Below are positions 2,183-21,005 of a DNA stretch of 43,415 nucleotides, one piece after another. How positions within the stretch are numbered: position 1 is the stretch's first letter; each line of letters starts with the position of its first letter. Under the pieces are notes generated by a model. The model saw nothing but the letters and a program-made list of their open reading frames with translations, made no database searches and was not told where the DNA came from. Made by a program: the position numbers and the translations under genes. This DNA comes from Polyangiaceae bacterium (lineage in GTDB: Bacteria > Myxococcota_A > Polyangia > Polyangiales > Polyangiaceae): the NCBI GenBank assembly GCA_029941785.1, contig JAPYTK010000021.1, forward strand, positions 1-43,415, written 5' to 3'.

Positions 2183-2295
2183 CCATGTATGACTGAGTTC
2201 GACTTATGGGTTTTGAGCTTGTGGCGGTGCAGTAAGAGAACGCCACCATGGCGTCTCTCCAGTGGTGATTGACATCACCGTGCAGTTGGCTTTCG

Positions 2296-2378
2296 CCCCG
2301 CCTCACTCGTCAAAAGCGGAGGTCGCTACGCACCATCAAGCTCGGTGATGCGTAGCGCCTCCTAACGGAGTGGCGGGG
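2296..2378 (-). terminator. Nested inverted repeat ending the small leader RNA
   Basis: The inner helix pairs 2318-2332 with 2349-2362 (14 bp around one bulged base). On the minus strand it is followed by gcttttg at 2317-2311, which fits a weak intrinsic terminator. An outer helix pairs 2296-2308 with 2368-2378 (11 bp around a 2-nt bulge) and encloses the inner one. Because the outer helix includes sequence both before and after the terminator, the element could act as a terminator or attenuator between the 30-codon ORF and the flagellin downstream. Confidence 0.55.
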
Positions 2379-2422
2379 TATTTTTCACAGCAAAGGCCAA
2401 CTGTGAATCTTGGACTTTGTCG

Positions 2423-2515
2423 TTAGCTGCTGCGCATCATCTGCGGCGTGACGGCATGGTAAAGACCATCCGTGCTCGCGATGGAGCAAGCAGTCGTGCT
2501 TACGTGGCGGAACAT
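2423..2515 (-). CDS. 30-aa ORF behind a flagellin-type leader
   Basis: An ATG sits 4 nt after the conserved SD hairpin and opens a 30-codon frame beginning MFRHVSTTAC and ending PQMMRSS. There is no resemblance to flagellin, no signal peptide and no membrane segment. The good ribosome binding site argues that it is translated. The peptide could be a functional leader peptide whose translation affects the downstream hairpin at 2318-2362, or a chance ORF left after loss of a flagellin gene. Confidence 0.4.
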   Translation of the reverse strand: MFRHVSTTACSIASTDGLYHAVTPQMMRSS

Positions 2516-2519
2516 GGCA

Positions 2520-2565
2520 ACTCCTTCTTAGAGTCTGAACGGACTTGCCGTCGTCATGACGGCGG
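2520..2565 (-). promoter_or_regulatory. Flagellin-type leader element B
   Basis: An imperfect 18-bp palindrome at 2548-2565 is followed, 13 nt downstream on the minus strand, by ACTCT-AAGAA-GGAGT at 2520-2534. The spacing is identical to leader A (13 nt), and the SD hairpin has the same fold with loop AAGAA instead of ATGAA. Confidence 0.65.
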
Positions 2566-2593
2566 TTGGCGAGATGTGATCCGTTCAAAGGGG

Positions 2594-2620
2594 TAAACGG
2601 ATAAGCGACAATTCCCTTGA
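2594..2620 (-). promoter_or_regulatory. Predicted sigma-28 (FliA) promoter, leader RNA B
   Basis: The minus strand reads TCAAG, 14 nt, then TCCGTTTA. The sigma-28 consensus is TAAA-N15-GCCGATAA. The same variant, with CCGTT in the -10 element and identical spacing, precedes 17662, 18747 and 19236, which supports the call. The predicted start is near 2586. Confidence 0.6.
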
Positions 2621-2782
2621 GAGATTCGCTGAAGAAAGTTCAAATATTGTTGGCGGGGGCATGTCGGGTTTGTTGAATTGTCTAATGACTCCCGCCGATT
2701 AGGGTCGCGGATTAGTGACTCGCCCGTTCTGGCGAAAGCAACGTTCTCGTCACGCGAAACCGGCTGCTATGCTCCCCGGACG

Positions 2783-17326: not shown

Positions 17327-17396
17327 GTGTTCGCGTTGTTAGCGCGACGTGCAGGGGGCGTCCTGCGAGAAAGTCCACATCCAACCAAAAAAAAAC

Positions 17397-17423
17397 TCAA
17401 GTCTTGAGCAGAGCAACCGTTTT
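17397..17423 (+). promoter_or_regulatory. Predicted sigma-28 promoter of flagellin 2
   Basis: The sequence TCAAG, 14 nt, a, ACCGTTTT matches the variant seen ahead of the other flagellin-type units. It leaves an unusually long 5' leader of about 230 nt before the flagellin at 17662, and no closer match was found. That leader (17430-17600) has GC-rich possible hairpins but no ORF that I can support. Confidence 0.55.
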
Positions 17424-17608
17424 ACATGATTGGCGGGAACCTGGCGGATCCTGTCCAACCCTGAGTGGAGGAGGGCCTCACGGACCTCCTTTGCGGGGCG
17501 ATCATGCGCAGGCTTGGCGGGCTGCGCGTGGTCGGTCCGGGTGATGCCCTGGCGGACGTCATCCCGGTGGAGTGCGTCACATGTTGTGCGTGCTCTCTTA
17601 TTCCATGA

Positions 17609-17654
17609 ACGTCGTCAAGATGACGACGTGTACGGCAACGCTCTAAGAAGGAGT
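17609..17654 (+). promoter_or_regulatory. Flagellin leader element C
   Basis: A perfect 9-bp stem-loop ACGTCGTCA-AGA-TGACGACGT (17609-17629) is followed by 10 nt and the SD hairpin gCTCT-AAGAA-GGAGt (17640-17654), 7 nt before the ATG. Compared with element D, one base pair in the first stem changes from G-C to A-T on both arms, a compensatory change that supports pairing in vivo. Confidence 0.7.
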
Positions 17655-17661
17655 CAATTTT

Positions 17662-18492
17662 ATGCCGCTCTATATCAATACCAATGTCCCATCGCTCATG
17701 GCCCAGCGCAATCTGAACAAAGCGCAGAGCCGTCTTCAGACCTCCTTTCAACGACTATCCAGCGGTTTCCGCGTAAACCAAGCTTCCGATGATTCGGCTT
17801 CGATGGGGATCAGTGAAACCCTGAGAGCACGCATCAAGAGTTTCGCCGTTGCCGAACGAAACACCAACAACGCCATCAGTATGGCGAACACGGCCGAAGG
17901 TGGCCTCAACGAGATCAGCGGCATCGTTCTTCGTATGCGCGAGCTGGCGGTCCAGAGCGCCAACGGCGATCTCACCTCCACGGATCGAAGCTACATCGAC
18001 ACCGAGTTTACCAACCTCAAGGAGGAGATCACCCGTCTCGCTGAAACGACGGAGTTTAACGGCAAGGAACTTCTCGCTGGCACGACGGCCGACGTCAATT
18101 TCCAAGTTGGTATCAACGTCACGACTCACGACACCATCGCGGTGAGCTTTGGTGGGGTCTCCCTCTCGGCCTTGAGCCTGAGCGGTGTGTCGGTGGGCGG
18201 TGCGACCGCTACGAACGCGACCAACGCGATTACGTCCATCGATACTGCCTTATCGACGGTCTCGGAGCGACGTGCTCAGTTTGGCGCGGCGTCCAACCGG
18301 CTCAGAATTGCGGCGGCCAACTCGACAACCATGCGGACCAATCTCGAGGCAGCCAACAGTGTCATCCGCGACGTCGACGTGGCGGCGGAGACGGCCGTGC
18401 TCGCTCGCTCACAGGTCTTGCTCCAAGCGGGCTCCGCGATTCTCGCCCAGGCGAACCAAACACCCAATCTCGCGTTGTCGCTGCTTCGGTAG
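17662..18492 (+). CDS. Flagellin (paralogue 2)
   Basis: This 276-aa flagellin matches paralogues 1 and 3 in length. It starts MPLYINTNVPSLMAQ, keeps RLSSGFRVNQASDDSAS and RMRELAVQSANGDLTSTDRS in the N-terminal D1 helices, and ends SQVLLQAGSAILAQANQ..LSLLR. The central domain is short and rich in Gly, Ser, Thr and Ala. Small differences from paralogue 3, such as SDDSAS in place of ADDAAG and a final Arg, suggest a specialised filament subunit. Ribosome entry is at GGAG 7 nt upstream, inside the SD hairpin. A strong terminator follows at 18557-18588, so it is monocistronic. Confidence 0.97.
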   Translation: MPLYINTNVPSLMAQRNLNKAQSRLQTSFQRLSSGFRVNQASDDSASMGISETLRARIKSFAVAERNTNNAISMANTAEGGLNEISGIVLRMRELAVQSANGDLTSTDRSYIDTEFTNLKEEITRLAETTEFNGKELLAGTTADVNFQVGINVTTHDTIAVSFGGVSLSALSLSGVSVGGATATNATNAITSIDTALSTVSERRAQFGAASNRLRIAAANSTTMRTNLEAANSVIRDVDVAAETAVLARSQVLLQAGSAILAQANQTPNLALSLLR

Positions 18493-18556
18493 CAACAACG
18501 TTCTGCCTCGATGACTGTTCCTTAGATTCCCCAAAAAAGAACACAACGGCAGTGGG

Positions 18557-18588
18557 CCGCGCACGGGAAACCGTGCGCGGTTTTTTTT
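18557..18588 (+). terminator. Strong intrinsic terminator of flagellin 2
   Basis: A perfect 10-bp GC-rich helix (ccgcgcacgg, loop gaaa, ccgtgcgcgg) is followed directly by eight T residues. This is a textbook rho-independent terminator, about 65 nt after the flagellin stop. Confidence 0.95.
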
Positions 18589-18639
18589 GTGTGGCGTCTG
18601 AGATGGCGGAAGAAAGTGCGCGGGGCATGCCCTTTTTCC

Positions 18640-18666
18640 TAAAGTTCTTTAGTGATTGGCCGTTGT
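18640..18666 (+). promoter_or_regulatory. Predicted sigma-28 promoter of leader RNA D
   Basis: The sequence reads TAAAGTTC then GCCGTTGT after the correct 15-nt spacing from TAAA. This is the best match in the window to the sigma-28 consensus TAAA-N15-GCCGATAA. The predicted start is near 18673. It drives no flagellin, only the orphan leader RNA. Confidence 0.65.
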
Positions 18667-18694
18667 TATAGACAAGCGGCAATATATGTCGCTT

Positions 18695-18739
18695 CATCGT
18701 CAAGATGACGATGTGGTCATCGGTACTCTAAGAAAGAGT
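18695..18739 (+). promoter_or_regulatory. Flagellin-type leader element D
   Basis: The first stem-loop is CATCGTCA-AGA-TGACGATG (18695-18713). After 11 nt follows ACTCT-AAGAA-AGAGT (18725-18739). In the second hairpin the SD GGAGT has become AGAGT, which turns a U-G pair into a U-A pair: the fold is strengthened while the ribosome site and the GGA motif are weakened. The ATG is 7 nt downstream. Confidence 0.65.
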
Positions 18740-18942
18740 GTTACCTATGCCGAACTGAGACCGAACATCGGCCCATATGGGATCGTCTCTGCACGCGTAA
18801 GCATCCGCCAGGCGCTTGGTGCAGCTGCACCGTGTTCGGGATCATACGGAGGGTTGACTGAGCAGGACTTCGGGACTGTAAGGTCGGCTCTAGAGCGCCG
18901 TTCGACAAGCTGGGTGTTGGGCGGAATCCTGGCACCCAGCCT

Positions 18943-18980
18943 ACGCGTCGGCGCTCGTTGCCGGCGCGTGTTTTCATTTT
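18943..18980 (+). terminator. Terminator of leader RNA D
   Basis: A 10-pair helix including one G-U pair joins 18943-18952 and 18960-18969 around the loop gctcgtt. It is followed by gttttcatttt, a reasonable U-rich tail. It ends the orphan leader RNA about 300 nt after its promoter. Confidence 0.7.
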
Positions 18981-19129
18981 GTGTGCTTGTTTTTGACGGT
19001 GGCGTCGCCGTTCCCTCACGAGCTCGCTCGGCCCTTTGCGGCCCTTACTTTTCCGCCCGAAGGGGATGCGATGGTCTCGCTCTATCTATGCGAGCCTCGA
19101 AGAAAAAATAAAAATCGTACAGCAGGCCC

Positions 19130-19156
19130 TAAAGAATTTCAGTTTCCGACCGTTCG
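19130..19156 (+). promoter_or_regulatory. Predicted sigma-28 promoter of flagellin 3
   Basis: The sequence reads TAAAG, 14 nt, ACCGTTCG with the standard spacing, about 80 nt before the start codon at 19236. The -10 shares CCGTT with the promoters at 17397, 18640 and 2594. Confidence 0.6.
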
Positions 19157-19160
19157 TAAG

Positions 19161-19228
19161 GACTAGCGGGAATCTAATTTGCGCTAGTCACTTAGGAAGT
19201 GGCGGGGAATCACGCTCTATGAAGGAGT
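19161..19228 (+). promoter_or_regulatory. Flagellin leader element E
   Basis: This leader lacks the tca-aga-tga stem-loop. It has an 8-bp stem gactagcg/cgctagtc (19161-19168 with 19182-19189) close to the predicted transcript start, a small hairpin CACTT-agg-AAGTG (19189-19201) with a GGA in its loop region, and the conserved SD hairpin gCTCT-ATGAA-GGAGt (19214-19228). The ATG follows after 7 nt. Confidence 0.6.
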
Positions 19229-19235
19229 CATCAAC

Positions 19236-20066
19236 ATGCCGCTGTACATCAATACGAACGTAGCTTCGTTACAGTCTCAGAAGAATCTAAACAAAGCCCA
19301 GGCGACGCTGCAGAGATCGTTCCAGCGCCTATCTAGTGGCTATCGAATCAACAGTGCAGCGGATGACGCTGCAGGTCTCGGTGTTTCCGAGTCTCTGCGC
19401 GCTCGAATCCGAAGCTTCGCTGTTGCCGAAAGAAATACCAACAATGCCATCAGCATGGCGCAAACGGCGGAAGGTGGTCTCAATGAGATCAGCGGAATCG
19501 TCGTCCGTATGCGCGAGCTGGCGGTCCAGGGCGCCAACGGCGATCTGACCTCGACCGACCGTAGCTATATCGATACCGAGTTTGGCGCGCTCAAGGAGGA
19601 GATCGACCGGCTCGCCGAGTCGACCGAGTTTAACGGAATAGAATTGCTCGCGGGCACATTGTCTTCCATCAACTTCCAGGTCGGTATCTCGACGAGCAGT
19701 TCCGATACGATTGGCGTCAGCTTCGGCGGTATTTCGCTCAGTTCCTTGGGGCTGAGCGGGATGTCCGTGGGCGGGGCTTCGGCTACGAATGCCACCTCAG
19801 CCATCACGGCTCTCGACGACGCGCTCACCACCGTGTCGAGTACGCGTGCCGCCTTCGGTGCGGCGAGCAACCGCCTCTCGATCGCCGTTGCCAATTCGCA
19901 GACCATGCGAACCAACCTCGAGGCCGCGAACAGCGTTATTCGTGACGTGGATGTGGCCGAAGAAACGGCCATCCTGGCTCGCTCGCAGGTGTTGCTCCAA
20001 GCGGGCACGTCGGTGTTGGCGCAAGCCAATCAGGTGCCGACCCTGGCGCTCTCGCTGTTGGGTTAA
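19236..20066 (+). CDS. Flagellin (paralogue 3)
   Basis: This is the most canonical of the flagellins, 276 aa. It begins MPLYINTNVASLQSQKNL, then has RLSSGYRINSAADDAAG, the export- and assembly-relevant RMRELAVQGANGDLTSTDRS and the C-terminal SQVLLQAGTSVLAQANQ..LALSLLG. The variable domain is minimal (about residues 145-195). It has its own sigma-28-type promoter and leader. A 12-pair hairpin without a U-run (20069-20104) separates it from the divergent flagellin, so some read-through into that gene is likely. Confidence 0.97.
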   Translation: MPLYINTNVASLQSQKNLNKAQATLQRSFQRLSSGYRINSAADDAAGLGVSESLRARIRSFAVAERNTNNAISMAQTAEGGLNEISGIVVRMRELAVQGANGDLTSTDRSYIDTEFGALKEEIDRLAESTEFNGIELLAGTLSSINFQVGISTSSSDTIGVSFGGISLSSLGLSGMSVGGASATNATSAITALDDALTTVSSTRAAFGAASNRLSIAVANSQTMRTNLEAANSVIRDVDVAEETAILARSQVLLQAGTSVLAQANQVPTLALSLLG

Positions 20067-20177: not shown

Positions 20178-21005
20178 ATGACCATCTACCCCAAAAATGA
20201 CCTCAAGAATCTGCGTTTGCTGCGAGGCAACTTGACGCGCGGGCGGAGCGATCTCGAGCGTTCGTTTCGGCGACTATCGAGTGGTATTCAGGTGAACGAT
20301 CCTCGCGACGGAGAGAGTCTCGAAATCGCGGCGTCCTTGAGGTCGCGGATCAGACGTTTTGGGGCAGCGGAGAGAATGACCCATCGGGCTATCGTGGTAG
20401 CCAAGTCCGCGGAGGGCGGCCTCGGGGACATCGCCCGAGTCGTCGAGCGGATGCGCGACTTGGCTGGACAGAGCGCGGATGATCAGCTCTCCCTCACGGT
20501 ACGTGGCGAGCTGGACGACGAGTTTCAGGGCCTGAAGGCCGAGATCATTCGGCTGAGTGACCACGCCGAGCTGCATGATCCACGGATGATGTACGCTGGG
20601 GGGAGTATCGATTTTCAGATTGCTCCGGCCACGATCGGCAGCGACCGCGTGCAGGTCGACTTTTCCGGCGTCACCCTTACGTTGCTCGGCCTACAGGATG
20701 CCTCGCTGCTCGAGGAGCAAGAGGGCATGTTGCTCGATGGCGCAGGGGTGTTCGACGAAGCGTTGCACGAGATCGATCGAAGGCAGGAACACGCCGGATC
20801 GTTGGTCAAACGAGTGCGACGGGCCGTGATCGGTGCTCGCGCCATCACACGCAATCTTCAGGCCGCAAGCAGTGGCGTAGCCGAGGTCGATCATGCCGAG
20901 AGCCAAAGTGTCCTGGTGAGGGCGCAGATGTTGCTACGTTCCGGCGTCAGCGTACTCGCTCAAGCCAATCAAGGTACGGGCATTGCCCTTCACCTGCTTC
21001 ATTAG
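20178..21005 (+). CDS. Divergent flagellin-like protein
   Basis: This 275-aa protein aligns with the flagellins end to end (SFRRLSSGIQVN, AKSAEGGLGDIARVVERMRDLAGQSA, LLRSGVSVLAQANQ) but has lost many invariant residues. The start reads MTIYPKNDLKN instead of MPLYINTN; AERNTNN has become AERMTHR; STEFNG has become HAELHDP. The centre is acidic, with DASLLEEQEG. The frame is intact, so it is under selection or recently diverged. It may be a minor or terminal filament subunit, or a regulator that competes for the flagellin chaperone. It probably shares the flagellin 3 transcript and has its own strong Shine-Dalgarno. Confidence 0.85.
   Translation: MTIYPKNDLKNLRLLRGNLTRGRSDLERSFRRLSSGIQVNDPRDGESLEIAASLRSRIRRFGAAERMTHRAIVVAKSAEGGLGDIARVVERMRDLAGQSADDQLSLTVRGELDDEFQGLKAEIIRLSDHAELHDPRMMYAGGSIDFQIAPATIGSDRVQVDFSGVTLTLLGLQDASLLEEQEGMLLDGAGVFDEALHEIDRRQEHAGSLVKRVRRAVIGARAITRNLQAASSGVAEVDHAESQSVLVRAQMLLRSGVSVLAQANQGTGIALHLLH

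Follow-up and report, generated by a model that had tools for sequence, protein, structure and literature searches.

An orphan flagellin leader between two flagellin genes of a Polyangia genome as a candidate CsrA-type decoy RNA

The region between two flagellin genes on a Polyangia contig contains a complete flagellin leader with no flagellin behind it. This unit (unit A, 18639-18975, forward strand) is composed of a sigma-28-type promoter, a two-hairpin leader, the frame ATG-CCG-AAC-TGA, and an intrinsic terminator, and the best single explanation for it, which we put forward tentatively as falling somewhat short of an even chance, is that it is an orphan CsrA-type decoy leader. The window (the whole stretch of DNA that was analyzed, 43,415 nucleotides) is contig C21 of a genome of approximately 6 Mb, and its closest named relatives are assemblies of Polyangia (Myxococcota) recovered from, among other sources, Lake Baikal water and groundwater.

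Unit A is flanked by flagellins at 17662-18492 and 19236-20066 (both forward strand). The upstream flagellin has its own promoter and leader (17396-17661, forward strand; located with the promoter matrix, the leader model, and leader comparison, and used here as a reference) and a strong terminator of its own at 18554-18583, and the downstream flagellin has its own promoter at 19129, which together with its leader spans 19129-19235 (forward strand; promoter matrix and leader comparison). Unit A therefore stands alone and is not the 5' UTR of the 19236 flagellin. Tandem flagellins that each carry their own promoter and leader are common here. Directly 3' of the 19236 flagellin lies a divergent paralogue (20178-21005, forward strand) with 39% identity to the 17662 flagellin and without the two-hairpin (H1-SD) leader described below. 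At another locus (L075:5297-6000), a 700-nt hairpin-rich spacer separates two flagellins, the second of which lacks the usual leader and promoter.

The promoter of unit A (CTAAAG-N15-CCGTT, 18639-18664) scores 19.8 bits with a matrix built from 22 flagellin promoter sites of relatives, a value reached by none of 20 random windows. It had been described as the best sigma-28-like promoter in the window, and it ranks second to the one at 19129 (21.9 bits). Downstream are a 5' hairpin (AAGCGGC-AAUAUAU-GUCGCUU, 18674-18694; fold and leader comparison), which occupies the place of a UGGCGGG element found in most other flagellin leaders, then the H1 hairpin with pentaloop AAGAU (18695-18713), the SD hairpin with loop AAGAA (18725-18739), and, as read earlier, an ATG that opens a three-codon frame, Met-Pro-Asn-stop (ATG CCG AAC TGA, 18747-18758). 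The unit closes with the terminator placed some 300 nt on by the preliminary description, a 12-pair stem (18942-18970) plus TTTTCATTTT (18942-18975), approximately 305 nt from the estimated RNA start. By sequence, unit A has two features expected of a sigma-28-dependent sRNA, a sigma-28-type promoter and an intrinsic terminator. Folding-energy z-scores against shuffled copies are -5.0 for the whole unit, -4.8 for its leader, and -3.6 for its body (taken to 18975).

The predicted two-hairpin leader is a family trait of Polyangia flagellins. Flagellins of the window's genome, its congener, and a sister genus share the promoter CTMAAG-N15-CCGTT and a leader plan in which H1, with a loop of the form A-N-G-A-Y, is followed approximately 31 nt on by an SD hairpin, ACUCU-ANGAA-GGAGU. 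Across 17 flagellin leaders of the clade, both loops read ANGA, and only the second base of this motif varies. In an alignment of 15 leaders (model R1), four of the six H1 pairs show two-sided changes, 97.8% of cells are paired, and covariation scores higher than in any of 500 shuffles or any slid version of the alignment. As this alignment includes unit A and a second orphan leader in the window (unit B), a second covariance model, R2, was trained on the 17 flagellin leaders only, with both units excluded.

R2 nevertheless recovers both, unit A at 41.6 bits (E=2e-10) and unit B at 47.7 bits (E=4e-12), in comparison to 48.7 and 50.5 bits for the flagellin leaders. This bears out the earlier reading that the unit A leader folds like the flagellin leaders. 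Two such units had been said to make chance less likely; both are statistically solid, and the B type is conserved in two further genomes. Across 108 genomes of the GTDB family, the strong model matches (E < ~1e-8) that were inspected precede flagellins, with four exceptions that have no flagellin frame: unit A, unit B, and the B-type units of G122 (locus L071) and G123 (locus L073). A match to R1 at L169 (G128), also without a flagellin downstream, was set aside as probably due to chance.

Other parts of the leaders vary. Close to the RNA 5' end, most of them contain another conserved element, GGRACC-UUGGC-GGGAACC, which forms a small hairpin with an internal loop (leaders of L031, L041, L044, and L219-L223, and window positions 17430-17470 and 19155-19215). 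A second leader class (L045, L071, L073, L076, L077, L040) has CCCGCCAC or CGCCAC just 5' of H1 instead, and the two motifs are mutually complementary. The L031 leader at 2910 (reverse strand) has an extra hairpin, CGUGCGUGCC...GGCACGUAGCG, inserted between H1 and the SD hairpin, which resembles a GCUACGC...GCGUAGC hairpin located after unit B.

Unit A retains 15 of the 16 invariant leader positions and all 11 pairs; the sole change is a G of the SD, which turns AAGGAG into AAAGAG and leaves no intact GGAG. The preliminary description had reported a lost GGA motif and a stabilized SD hairpin. The first holds for the SD, but the conserved loop motif is ANGA, and both copies are kept. The second holds in that one pair changes from U-G to U-A, but this is not special; the SD is predicted to be closed in nearly all leaders of the family, so a stabilized SD hairpin adds little. 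With its SD lost and a stop after three codons, unit A would make no flagellin.

The remainder of unit A is structured, gives no coding signal, and has no similarity to flagellin (18750-18940). The best local alignment score of this body against flagellin genes and their flanks is 30, compared to 27-34 in shuffles, and no residual flagellin coding similarity is found downstream of the ATG, as a pseudogene made by nonsense mutation or frameshift would retain. A whole-unit DNA search of 184 genomes of the order yielded terminator-like matches only, and no homologue was found in G001, G005, and G007, in plasmids, or in viral contigs (one exact 22-base pattern). Searches of the window against Rfam gave no match at the gathering score and one chance-level match around unit A.

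Unit B (2290-2621, reverse strand) lies upstream of a flagellin on the same strand (1304-2134). Its promoter, CTCAAG-N15-CCGTT (2596-2621), scores 16.2 bits, and its leader (2513-2588), which has 77% identity to the L073 unit, is of the second class, with an outer stem that encloses both CCCGCCAC (CUCGCCAAC in the window) and H1 (2547-2563, loop AUGAC). The SD hairpin (2520-2534) has an intact AAGGAG, and the ATG (2513-2515) opens a frame of 30 codons (MFRHVSTT..., 2423-2515) that is not a flagellin. A large 3' hairpin (2290-2384), without a good T-run, is placed like hairpins in L071 and L073 and after the first flagellin of L075. The likeness to unit A that had been proposed stands for the leader, the promoter, and a rough size class, and fails for the 30-codon frame and the lack of a good terminator; the two are not one kind of transcript, and unit B is possibly part of the downstream flagellin mRNA.

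The B-type units of L071 and L073, which belong to another genus, occupy the same place as in the window, upstream of a flagellin and with a membrane-protein gene of the same kind in divergent orientation, probably encoding a histidine kinase as judged by eye from its relative in the window. Between these two loci the leader is 89% identical, compared to 63% for the promoter, 74% for the frame, and 52% for the spacer, which indicates that the orphan leader is being conserved; its differences include a compensatory U-A to C-G pair and one change at the free loop base. The frame carries 20/21/16 mismatches at the three codon positions (32/19/91 in the adjoining flagellin), with 6 silent and 33 replacement codons, and the 75-aa frame of L071 was found besides only in L073. 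A conserved leader with a frame free of coding selection argues that unit B is kept as RNA, and at least some orphan leaders therefore appear to be kept as RNAs. Just 3' of the ATG, the window shares (T)CCGCCACG with L071 and L073, which suggests a short state older than the split of the two genera.

A candidate for the protein that would recognize such leaders is CsrA, which is encoded together with FliW behind flgL (PF02599 and PF02623 beside FlgL, contig C62). Flagellin-leader hairpins at L016, in the same GTDB family, have the canonical CsrA hexaloops CAAGGAUG and CAAGGACG, and flagellin leaders at L022, L024, and L026, in other families, have GGA pentaloops. No canonical ANGGA loop is present in unit A. 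We infer that the ANGA loops may be CsrA sites with a shifted motif; that CsrA binds them is a guess. CsrA proteins of the window's GTDB family mostly read VLRGEV/L, and VHR.E occurs in two of three proteins from family f3. The apparent passage from ANGGA hexaloops or GGA pentaloops in relatives to ANGA in the clade is accompanied by a change from VHR.E to VLRGEV near the RNA-contact arginine of CsrA, and this residue change is suggestive of altered contacts. Unit A is not a known Rfam family, and with its loops AAGAU and AAGAA it cannot be claimed as a member of the CsrA-titrating RNAs. A sponge rich in GGA was considered and rejected, as GGA triplets are at chance level (6 in unit A versus 6.05 in shuffles, 4 in unit B versus 5.0), and unit A is thus not a CsrB-like sponge.

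As a decoy, unit A would be a separate, sigma-28-driven RNA of approximately 305 nt, essentially untranslated, with a complete flagellin leader at its start. The pair of A-N-G-A loops would mimic both regulator sites on the flagellin mRNAs and would be bound by the RNA-binding protein that acts there, most likely CsrA, whose gene lies beside flgL and fliW. Produced during flagellin production, unit A would titrate CsrA and ease the repression of flagellin mRNAs, in the manner of the Campylobacter flaA leader if it works at all; at least some orphan leaders might serve to sequester the repressor protein of flagellin translation. Of the earlier suggestion of decoy or sensor RNAs, the decoy fits, with loops kept and SD lost, and the sensor is without support. 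With just two sites, a lone leader would titrate weakly unless it were abundant. Keeping loops and pairs while losing an SD G is decoy-like, but decay would equally begin in this way, and a single change is indecisive. More doubtful is the broader proposal that a Polyangia lineage made flagellin leaders into stand-alone sigma-28 decoys, keeping the ANGA loops and dropping the SD and the gene, and so tuning a CsrA-FliW switch.

Decay is the substance of the most serious rival, namely that unit A is a relic, what remains (promoter, leader, and terminator) of a tandem-array flagellin gene whose coding region is gone, idle today and with its SD starting to decay. Unit A sits where a flagellin of such an array is expected, among tandem flagellins with their own promoters and leaders, and keeps the ATGCCG start of its neighbors. 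It is also confined to this genome among the 184 of the order, which keeps the relic a serious rival that we consider possible and rank close behind the decoy. Homologous loci with a full flagellin frame had been named as the mark of a recent pseudogene. For unit A there is no homologous unit to compare among these genomes, and for unit B this mark is seen in part, as that position holds a full flagellin with the same kind of leader in L075, L076, and L077 and the short unit in L071, L073, and the window. Against a relic, the body of unit A retains no flagellin remnant and is itself structured, the promoter, both hairpins, and the terminator are intact even though, by eye, no more than 5 of 13 linker sites agree with the linker of the 17662 leader, and the B-type orphans are conserved as orphans.

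The full flagellins of L075-L077 also bear on a less probable alternative, in which B-type units (and perhaps unit A, through read-through transcription) are not RNAs in their own right and instead open a long flagellin mRNA leader of two modules, through which the next flagellin is controlled. No sigma-28 site was found between unit B and the 1304-2134 flagellin, nor in the corresponding intervals of L071 and L073; with the full flagellins in view, unit B may form the start of a long flagellin mRNA. Consistent with this reading, its 3' hairpin has a poor T-run, and in L071 and L073 as well as in the window the flagellin is preceded by a second H1-SD module, whereas unit A has a good terminator and the next flagellin its own promoter at 19129. 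We regard the reading as improbable overall. Even less probable is an antisense small RNA that pairs with flagellin mRNAs. The CCCGCCAC of B-class leaders is complementary to the UGGCGGG of most others, and CCCCGCCACU of unit B matches AGUGGCGGGG in the 19236 leader, but when units A and B are paired with nine of the genome's flagellin leaders, the duplex energies do not differ from those of shuffled copies, and antisense action is therefore unsupported. Finally, a small or overlapping protein is the least credible of all, as the 141-codon frame from ATG 18686 (open frame 18656-19111) passes through the terminator, and the 75-76-codon B frame of L071 and L073, which begins alike in three genomes, shows the mismatch pattern given above. 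No Pfam match supports such a protein.

If the decoy reading is true, a leader freed from its gene would be a simple origin for CsrA antagonists, in which the target is copied and the coding part is lost, and ANGA throughout the clade beside the canonical ANGGA of relatives suggests a shifted CsrA recognition motif. Flagellar regulation in swimming Myxococcota appears to be hardly studied, with little in the literature. CsrA control of flagellin is widespread, and in the hag system of B. subtilis the CsrA site lies in the leader; to our knowledge, that system as described includes no orphan leader copy, and we know of few RNA antagonists of CsrA outside Gammaproteobacteria. FliW-CsrA is reported to control flagellin levels in B. 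subtilis (PMC6529632), a likeness to the control proposed here. The C. jejuni flaA leader, which folds into two stem-loops with ANGGA in the loops and with the ribosome site in the second, binds and titrates CsrA (PMC4894983). As here, two hairpins precede the flagellin start, the second on the SD, and csrA and fliW are present; in C. jejuni, however, the leader that titrates remains part of the flagellin mRNA and has ANGGA loops, whereas the leader described here is gene-less, has ANGA loops, and is only predicted to bind. The sponges CsrB/CsrC and RsmX/Y/Z resemble unit A in the proposed sequestration of CsrA through hairpin loops, but unit A has no GGA enrichment, two candidate loops, a sigma-28 promoter, and a flagellin-leader origin. 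Sigma-28-dependent sRNAs are known from E. coli (UhpU, MotR, FliX, and FlgO; PMC10578931) and Campylobacter (CjNC1/CjNC4; PMC4626219), and these share with unit A the flagellar sigma factor and a tie to flagellar control. Base pairing is their main known or predicted mode of action, whereas unit A gives no pairing signal and starts with a flagellin leader.
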